Shown in pieces: positions 20,132-22,762 of a stretch of 40,256 nucleotides of DNA. A model generated the notes under the pieces. That model was not told the DNA's origin. It did not search any database and saw only the letters and a list, made by a program, of their open reading frames with translations. The stretch is from an uncultured Rhodospirillales bacterium (GTDB taxonomy: Bacteria; Pseudomonadota; Alphaproteobacteria; Reyranellales; Reyranellaceae): positions 1 through 40,256 of the forward strand of contig CAMFJT010000020.1 in assembly GCA_945957125.1 (NCBI GenBank), read 5' to 3'. The position numbers were made by a program, and so were the translations under genes. The first letter of the stretch is position 1. Each line of letters opens with the position of its first letter.

Positions 20132-21514
20132 ATGAACTGGGGGAGAGTGAACCGGCGCCGCCTGCTGGCGGGCGCGACCGCGCTTTGGCCGATGGCCGCG
20201 CTCGGCCAGCAGCCGCAGCAGCCGCGCCGCCAGGCGCCGGCGTCCGAGCCCGGATTGCCGCCGCCGATCGTGTTCGTGCACGGCAACGGCGATTCGGGCG
20301 CGCTGTGGATCAACAACATCTGGCGCTTCGAGGCCAACGGCTTCAGGCGCAATCAGCTTTTCGCCATCGATTTCAGCTATCCGGTGGCGCTGAGCGACGA
20401 TTCGAAGATGCAGCCGTTCCGCTCCTCCACGGCGGAGGCGATGAAGGAGCTGGCGGCGTTCGTCGCGAAGGTGAAGAAGGAGACACGCCGTCGCAAGGTC
20501 GCGCTGGTCGCCTCGTCGCGCGGCGGCAATGCGGTGCGCAACTTCCTGCGCAACGGCGGCGGCGCGGACTCGGTCAGCCACGCCGTGCTGTGCGGCACGC
20601 CGAACAAGGGCATCGTCATCTCCGACACGATGCTGGTCGGCAGCGAGTTCAACGGCGCGGCGCCCTTTCTCAAGGGGCTGAACGGCGGGCCGGACGACCT
20701 GATCGCCGGCGTCGAGCTGATGGCGATCCGCTCGGACAAGGATGACAAATATTCCCAGCCCGACGGACGCTTCATCGGCCAGCCCGGCAAGCCGACCGGC
20801 GTGAGCTTCGATGCCTCGGAGCTGCGCGGCGCGCGCAATGTCGTCCTCGACGGCGTCGATCACCGCGAGACGGCGTTCCACAAGCTGGCCTTCGCCGCGC
20901 AATACCAGTTCATCGCCGGCAAGGCGGCGGGCACGTTGTTCATCGCCCAGGAGCCGAAGCCGACCCTCAACGGCCGGGTCACCGGCATGGCCGACGGGCT
21001 CTACACCAACCTCCCCGTCGCCGATGCCGAGGTCGAGATCTACGAGGTCGATTCCCGCACCGGCGAGCGCCGCACGACGCAGCCGGTACATCGCAGGACG
21101 ACCGGCGCCGACGGCCAGTGGGGACCGTTCGTCGGCAGTTCCGACGCCTGCTACGAGTTCGTGCTGCGCATGGCGAGCCAGCCGGTCACCCATACCTACC
21201 GCTCGCCCTTCCTGCGCTCGAGCGATGTCGTCCATCTGCGGCCCGAGCCGTTCGCCAAGGCCGACGAGAACGCGGCGTCAGTCGTGATCATGAGCCGGCC
21301 GCGCGGCTATTTCGGCGTGGGCCGCGACAAGTTCTCGCTCGACGGCAAGACGCCGCCCGGCATCACCGACGGCGTGCCCGCCGTCTCGACCGGCCGGCTG
21401 GCGTTCGACGCCACCCCGCGCACCGTCGTGGCCATGTTCAACAACGAGACGATCGCCACCCGCACCTGGCCCACGAAGGATAATCACATCGTGGTGGCGG
21501 AGTTCCTGAACTAG
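20132..21514 (+). CDS. Tat-exported alpha/beta hydrolase
   Basis: The 460-residue protein begins with a twin-arginine signal (NRRRLLAGATALWPMAALGQQ) and is likely secreted folded to the periplasm or outside. An alpha/beta-hydrolase core follows: oxyanion-type VFVHGNGDSG (about 47-55), the nucleophile elbow ASSRGG with Ser129 (an A-x-S-x-G variant of GxSxG), then CGTPNKG. Residues after about 290 form a beta-rich accessory region resembling carboxypeptidase-like or carbohydrate-binding folds. Lipase/esterase or polyester depolymerase activity is plausible; the substrate is unknown. Its TAG stop and the stop of the converging selenoprotein gene share the four bases CTAG. Confidence 0.82.
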   Translation: MNWGRVNRRRLLAGATALWPMAALGQQPQQPRRQAPASEPGLPPPIVFVHGNGDSGALWINNIWRFEANGFRRNQLFAIDFSYPVALSDDSKMQPFRSSTAEAMKELAAFVAKVKKETRRRKVALVASSRGGNAVRNFLRNGGGADSVSHAVLCGTPNKGIVISDTMLVGSEFNGAAPFLKGLNGGPDDLIAGVELMAIRSDKDDKYSQPDGRFIGQPGKPTGVSFDASELRGARNVVLDGVDHRETAFHKLAFAAQYQFIAGKAAGTLFIAQEPKPTLNGRVTGMADGLYTNLPVADAEVEIYEVDSRTGERRTTQPVHRRTTGADGQWGPFVGSSDACYEFVLRMASQPVTHTYRSPFLRSSDVVHLRPEPFAKADENAASVVIMSRPRGYFGVGRDKFSLDGKTPPGITDGVPAVSTGRLAFDATPRTVVAMFNNETIATRTWPTKDNHIVVAEFLN

Positions 21515-22728
21515 ATCCGGTGCTGCTGCGTGCGAGGCACGAGAGCGCCGCGCGCGAGCGCACGCAGCGCCCTGTCGGGGCTGGCCGCGCAAACCGGATG
21601 GAGCCGAAGGATCAGGCGGCCGGCTGCCGTCTCGCCCCAGAACCAATCGGCCAGGGCACGCGGGGCGGCGCTGCCGCCGGGACGGGCCGATGCCGCTTCG
21701 AGATACCAGTTGCGCAGATCCTCGGTGGCGAAGCGCACGGTTTGCGCCAGGCTGAGCCCCTGTGCCGGCGGCGCCGCGTCACCGGCCAGCAGCGTGCCGA
21801 GGAAGGCGAGCGCCGCGGGCATGTTGAGCCCGCACAGCCCGACGGTGCTGCCGCCGCGGCCGGTGACGGCGAGCTCGTACCACGGCGCCAGGACGGCCAT
21901 CTCGGCCGCGACCGCCGCGACCGGATCCGACGTGGCATCGACGGGCGGGCGCGGCAGCGGCACGGGACAGGCAAGGCCTTCCATCTCCTCCGGTGCGGAG
22001 GGCGGCGCGTCCTCGCCGAAGTCCTCGAGGATGACGGGGCCGTCCGTGCGCTCCAGCAGCGCCAGAGCCGCGCGCAAGGTGCGCCCTTGCAGGCCCGTGT
22101 CATGCGGCGCGCCGAACGGCCGGCCGAGCTCGAACGACACCCACAGCGCCCGCGGCGGACGCATGGCGAGGGTGTTCTCGCGCACGAGGCTGATGCCGGT
22201 GGTCGGCACGCCTTCTTCCTCGATGTAGTGGGCGACCGCGCTCACGGCGCGGGTGCAGTTCGGTCAAACCGGCACGAGCAGCGCGGCGTCGACCTGATCC
22301 TGCTTCAGGAAGCCGGCGATGGCGCGCGCCGTGGCCTCGATCTCCGGCGGCTCCCACAGCGCGCCCATCAGGGCATAGTGATAGGCGGCGATCGAGCCGA
22401 TCGCGCCTTCGGCTTCGAGCTCGCGCAGCCGATCGATCGGGAAGACGACATTGCTGTCCTGCTGAAAGCCCGTGCGGTCGAAGTTGACCGAGGTGTGGCT
22501 CATCACCAGGTCGCGTCCGGCGACCTCGCCGGGAAGCACACGATAACCGGTGTCGGCGATCTGGAAAGCCGGCTGATCGCGGCGATGAAGGCCGGCCGTG
22601 GTGACGATCGCCACCCGCCGCTCGCGCAGAGGCCGTCCCGTGACGAACGGCTCGCCCGGTAGCGGCACGCATGCCTTGGACAGCAGGTGGCGACGCTCCA
22701 CCTCCGGCAGGTCGAGCAGCCTGACCAT
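21511..22728 (-). CDS. GrdB/PrdB-like reductase selenoprotein with in-frame UGA (Sec155)
   Basis: Read through one TGA at 22264-22266, this is a 405-residue protein of the glycine/sarcosine/betaine/D-proline reductase selenoprotein B family. Upstream of the TGA, SHTSVNFDRTGFQQDSNVV and PIDRLRELEAEGAIG match the GrdB core, and DAALLVPV-U-PNCTRAVSAVAHYIEEEG gives a redox UxxC motif (Sec155, Cys158) where GrdB has its own Sec. Homology continues in the same frame after the TGA without indel. Conventional calling gives two pieces, 22264-22728 and 21511-22245, the second starting at a GTG that lies inside the proposed SECIS loop. ATG at 22728 has GGAG about 11 nt upstream. It lies 34 nt after the ATC-hydrolase-family gene. 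The electron donor and substrate are unknown; a nonsense-mutated pseudogene is the alternative. Confidence 0.83.
22236..22252 (-). promoter_or_regulatory. Candidate bacterial SECIS stem-loop
   Basis: On the transcript, CCGCGC pairs perfectly with GCGCGG (6 bp) around the loop CGUGA. The loop begins 18 nt after the UGA and has G as its second base. This matches the known bacterial SECIS pattern (short apical stem-loop, an early loop G, loop 16-37 nt after UGA, as in fdhF). It is where SelB would dock to deliver Sec-tRNA at position 155. Confidence 0.7.
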
Positions 22729-22762
22729 TCCTTCGATTGCTCCGCGTGGCTCGAAGCCGTTC

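Follow-up and report, generated by a model that had tools for sequence, protein, structure and literature searches.

An in-frame UGA codon in a gene of an uncultured Rhodospirillales bacterium is, with very high probability, decoded as selenocysteine (Sec), so that the gene encodes a full-length selenoprotein of 405 residues. The gene occupies positions 21511-22728 on the minus strand of the window (the whole stretch of DNA that was analysed, 40,256 nucleotides in length), and comparison with its homologues marks it as PrdB-like with a C-terminal extension. The reading frame starts with an ATG at 22728 and comprises 405 codons followed by a TAG (21511-21513), and its sole TGA is codon 155 (22264-22266, minus strand), which is conserved in homologues, corresponds to Sec155 and opens a U-P-N-C motif. 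The partner cysteine of this UxxC site, Cys158 (22255-22257, minus strand), is invariant in 45 aligned homologues. A preliminary description of the window, made from the sequence alone, had taken two adjacent open frames to be one frame split by a single TGA, with the peptides DAALLVPV before and PNCTRAV after it and 250 further codons to the TAG, and the translation agrees with this, both quoted peptides being exact.

An open run as long as the 250 codons between the TGA and the TAG has a chance of ~3% by triplet frequency, the sequence being stop-poor, and its length is not decisive by itself; the frame is read through the TGA because the alignment to homologues of ~400 amino acids is unbroken. 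In comparison with an 86%-identical homologue (locus L078), dN/dS is 0.075/0.49 (~0.15) before the TGA and 0.092/0.58 (~0.16) after it, and these similarly low values indicate equal constraint on the two halves.

The codon itself is conserved well beyond the window. Thirty-six other genomes of the genus (Reyranella/Enhydrobacter) were searched, 24 of which contain a full-length homologue (~52-55% identity), and exactly one TGA was found at the same place in 24/24 of these. A wider scan of genome contigs yielded 427 stretches that encode relatives, and the best 80 of the 427 were examined, a sample that includes Reyranella and is skewed to close relatives by the search itself. Within this sample, the position of codon 155 is occupied by TGA in 79 of 80 cases and never by TAA or TAG, and none of the homologues truly ends there. 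The best 80 include metagenome-assembled genomes labelled Alpha-, Beta-, Gamma- and Deltaproteobacteria, Myxococcota and Chloroflexi, and the wider scan also recovered homologues from the cultured species Reyranella aquatilis and R. soli. The sole non-TGA codon among the best 80 is a CGA (Arg) in L089 (1264-1266), where the frame is otherwise intact; it may represent a sequencing error, an inactive copy or a Sec-less variant. Shorter PrdB-like paralogues, from Reyranella as well as from further Alphaproteobacteria, differ at this position: some have TGA, others a Cys codon (TGC or TGT), and such interchange of Sec and Cys is the usual pattern for selenoproteins. The question whether U or Cys stands at position 155, raised in the preliminary description, is answered by TGA in all but one of the full-length homologues examined and by TGA or Cys in the paralogues.

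Several genomes carry more than one gene of this kind. A second, shorter PrdB-like gene with a TGA in the motif U-P-V-C-H-Q is present in the same genome as the window (G000 C32:19142-19762; L061, L192). Three Reyranella genomes (L158, L159, L160) have a tandem pair of short PrdB-like genes; the motif is U-P-V-C in one of them and U-P-L-D in the other, which thus has a Sec but no partner cysteine. Two full-length copies in tandem, ~15-25 bp apart and with a TGA in both, were observed in four Rhodospirillales-type genomes (L079 4773-5984, L080 4774-5985, L082 4776-5978 and L124 4774-5982); the upstream copies share 44-50% identity with the window protein, and each tandem perhaps encodes a heteromeric pair.

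The machinery for Sec incorporation, for which the preliminary description had proposed a search, is present in full in the genome. The genes for selA (C51:17323-18636, 574 bits), SelB (C51:20400-20516) and tRNA-Sec (C51:20604-20695, 71 bits) are neighbours on one contig, selD is found on another (C62, 431 bits), and SelB was detected in 34/37 genomes of the genus, several of which are incomplete. Downstream of the UGA, a SECIS-like hairpin with a 6-bp stem (CCGCGC/GCGCGG) and the loop CGUGA is predicted at 22236-22252 on the minus strand. Across an alignment of 40 sequences, the family hairpin has a stem of 6-7 bp and a loop with GU, and begins 11 nt 3' of the UGA, as in the window; its stem cells are paired in 91.3% of cases, and 17 double-sided changes were counted, compared with a shuffle mean of 4.4 (0/500 shuffles reach 17). 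When the partner strand of the stem is slid by 1-3 columns in the same alignment, the covariation effect is destroyed. The window hairpin alone is ordinary for its composition (folding z 0.20; full stem in 7% of synonymous resamplings), and the case for a SECIS element rests on the family alignment because this single hairpin is not beyond chance.

The Sec machinery, the conservation of the UGA, the Sec/Cys interchange, the covariation of the hairpin, the dN/dS values and the alignment with PrdB together settle the reading of the UGA as Sec as far as sequence can. The conditions named in the preliminary description as refuting this reading were checked against the genome and the homologues, and they did not overturn it. 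Were the UGA a genuine stop, a truncated protein of 154 residues would result and the downstream frame would be a remnant, or a separate gene starting from a GTG at 22245; mechanical ORF calling does divide the frame at this codon, but constraint is similarly strong on both sides, no TAA or TAG is substituted for the TGA in the 80 best homologues of the wider scan, Cys occupies the same position in paralogues, and a conserved hairpin as well as the Sec machinery are present, which makes termination highly improbable. As the window comes from a draft assembly of 432 contigs, the TGA might be supposed to be an error of sequencing or assembly, or else a nonsense mutation of recent date; with the same TGA present in independent genomes from many projects, the probability of either is negligible.

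The preliminary description had called the protein GrdB/PrdB-like with U at the Sec position of the family; the homology was confirmed, and the label can be sharpened in favour of PrdB. The closest curated model is that of PrdB (TIGR04483), which matches residues 14-227 with an E-value of 2.7e-31 and a score of 108.8 bits, below the equivalog cut-off of 300, while the GrdB-type models are weaker (E 5e-16 to 5e-12). The model for glycine reductase selenoprotein B (TIGR01917) reaches 45.5 bits against a cut-off of 602, TIGR01918 is narrowly missed (54 against 65.45 bits), and the other GrdB-type NCBIfam cut-offs are missed by far, whereas the broader Pfam family GRDB (PF07355) is matched above its threshold (42.9 bits, cut-off 22). 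TIGR04483 and PF07355 match all 45 aligned family members. With PrdB of Clostridia and Enterococcus, the window protein shares homology over ~215 residues and a UGA-encoded Sec in a UxxC site; in the alignment, this UGA coincides with that of PrdB from Acetoanaerobium noterae and Enterococcus raffinosus, which places the site at the family position of TIGR04483. However, PrdB has ~241 amino acids and is encoded beside prdA and prdC, whereas the window protein has 405 and includes a helical domain. With GrdB/F/H (PF07355), it shares a weaker homology and the UxxC selenocysteine site, but those profiles span ~430 amino acids and the homologous part lies in their C-terminal half. Judged by these comparisons, the window protein is PrdB-like over residues 14-227, yet is neither PrdB nor GrdB.

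The AlphaFold2 model divides the protein into two domains. Residues 32-246 (21991-22635, minus strand; mean pLDDT 88.8) are predicted to form an alpha/beta (Rossmann-like) domain, which is the PrdB-homologous part, and in the model U155 sits just past the strand formed by residues 148-152, at the N-end of the helix formed by residues 156-171, with Cys158 three residues further. Residues 256-405 (21514-21963, minus strand; pLDDT 91.9) are predicted to form an all-helical C-terminal domain, which is absent from PrdB, the latter ending in the alignment where this domain begins. Structure searches with the model matched the alpha/beta domain no more closely than by a shared fold, and neither the whole model nor the C-terminal domain found a convincing relative in the PDB; this is not proof of a novel fold. 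The family profile, searched by sequence against the PDB, gave no match, and the C-terminal domain (~150 residues) matches no Pfam family. The residues invariant across the 45 homologues include U155, C158, C254, H117, R193, R203, D236, W283, E344 and W362, so that the C-terminal extension holds conserved positions of its own.

In the clostridial enzymes, the substrate is held by pyruvoyl subunits, namely PrdA, with which PrdB works, and GrdE. The statement in the preliminary description that a partner is absent holds as to the pyruvoyl subunit: PF09338 matched nothing in this genome (~92% complete) and nothing in 398 sampled genomes of the phylum, and a PrdA query likewise found nothing in this genome, whereas the same PF09338 search detected an Enterococcus record that served as positive control. 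In contrast to the clostridial enzyme, in which PrdB has a pyruvoyl PrdA, the window protein was thus found in a genome without a detectable PrdA.

It is about evenly balanced whether the protein acts as a stand-alone reductase of a metabolite, as analogy with its relatives would suggest. The selenolate of U155 would attack the carbon-heteroatom bond of a small metabolite, at a carbon with a leaving group, Cys158 would resolve the intermediate with formation of a Se-S bond, and a cellular thiol system would reduce this bond; the scheme is drawn from the established chemistry of PrdB and GrdB enzymes, whose Sec attacks such bonds. The C-terminal helical domain would probably take part in substrate binding or oligomerisation, because no pyruvoyl subunit (PrdA or GrdE) was found. 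A possible but rather unlikely alternative is that the selenoprotein is not a metabolite reductase at all, but a general Se-thiol oxidoreductase or a peroxide or thiol repair protein, as UxxC is a general redox motif and no substrate-binding pyruvoyl partner was detected; however, the homology is to a reductase subunit and not to thioredoxin-fold proteins, and the extra conserved domain together with the TauD neighbours described below suggests a specific substrate. A genuine D-proline reductase PrdB with an unrecognised partner would fit TIGR04483 as the best curated match and the coinciding Sec position, but the score far below the equivalog cut-off, the lack of a PrdA homologue in the genome and the extra C-terminal domain make this reading improbable. 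With regard to the substrate of a stand-alone metabolite reductase, a GrdB-like operon in Synergistota has been proposed to function in monofluoroacetate dehalogenation, a link based on genomics and transcriptomics (PMC10838667). This is a precedent for GrdB-type proteins tied to other alpha-substituted acids, and the substrate range of the superfamily may therefore be plastic; yet that system is anaerobic and GrdB-like, and its operon is a different one.

Genomic context bears on both function and origin. At 9 loci a TauD/TfdA dioxygenase gene directly neighbours the selenoprotein gene in the same orientation, and at 2 more it lies at ~0.9 kb (within ~2 kb), all in other lineages that represent several separate clades of the tree; the window has no TauD neighbour, and many other loci end too early to tell. 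These recurrent neighbours suggest a role in the aerobic catabolism of small molecules for part of the family. Put forward tentatively, the proteins may constitute a widespread family of two-domain selenoenzymes in aerobic bacteria whose reaction, the reduction of a C-N or C-X bond in a small molecule, needs neither a pyruvoyl nor a GrdA partner and in some lineages runs in series with a TauD-type dioxygenase; they would then be oxygen-tolerant relatives of the Stickland reductases that act alone.

In the window, the selenoprotein gene sits between an upstream gene of the L-2-amino-thiazoline-4-carboxylic acid hydrolase family (PF14196; 22763-23245, minus strand; Pfam E 2.6e-37) and a convergent lipase-like gene. 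The PF14196 gene is kept across the genus at 81-92%; a functional partnership was considered but rejected, since in the other Reyranella studied, except at L078, it lies apart from the selenoprotein gene, and it is probably a mere neighbour. The gap between the PF14196 and lipase-like genes amounts to ~97 bp in G005 (L072) and ~40 bp in G001 (L073), compared with 1248 bp in the window (21515-22762), and L078 has a filled site like that of the window. Comparison of these sites indicates that the window copy was acquired through insertion between a pair of genes adjacent in other Reyranella. In the tree, the window and L078 group together (100/100) inside a clade of Alphaproteobacteria and Myxococcota (98/98), apart from the Reyranella-type clade (100/100), and the assembly of L078 carries both types (L078 and L126). 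Since the site is empty elsewhere, the tree places the window copy apart from the Reyranella type and both types coexist in one assembly, horizontal transfer is the simplest reading of the gain.

Selenoproteins of the PrdB type with a UxxC motif are already known as a kind from marine metagenomes since 2005. In the available portions of the two reports concerned, 'proline reductase PrdB' is represented by 42 sequences from the Sargasso Sea in 2005 (PMC1088965) and 'PrdB' by 235 from GOS in 2008 (PMC2398784), and a survey from 2021 assigned 6.4% of marine selenoprotein genes to 'proline reductase' (PMC9402790). The interpretation as a selenoprotein, supported as it is by the Sec machinery and the conserved codon, does not describe a unique protein but one with hundreds of relatives. 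The two marine sets have the same UxxC motif and family name and likely contain the long subfamily, and the wider scan found members of the long family in SAR116 and Rhodospirillaceae; however, the C-terminal domain, the gene context and the missing PrdA are not described in those portions of the reports (PMC1088965, PMC2398784). In the literature searched, no description was found of the two-domain architecture, the missing pyruvoyl partner, the dioxygenase linkage or the transfer history, and nothing relevant was found on Reyranella selenoproteins or on a link between GrdB and TauD.

PrdB-type UxxC proteins rank among the most frequent marine selenoproteins and carry a name that implies an anaerobic, Stickland-fermenting host. 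The long subfamily, with Sec and a SECIS element, an extra conserved domain, no pyruvoyl partner found and dioxygenase neighbours in several lineages, makes a concrete case for this usual annotation being misleading, and R. aquatilis and R. soli offer cultured carriers of a homologue for the search for the real substrate.
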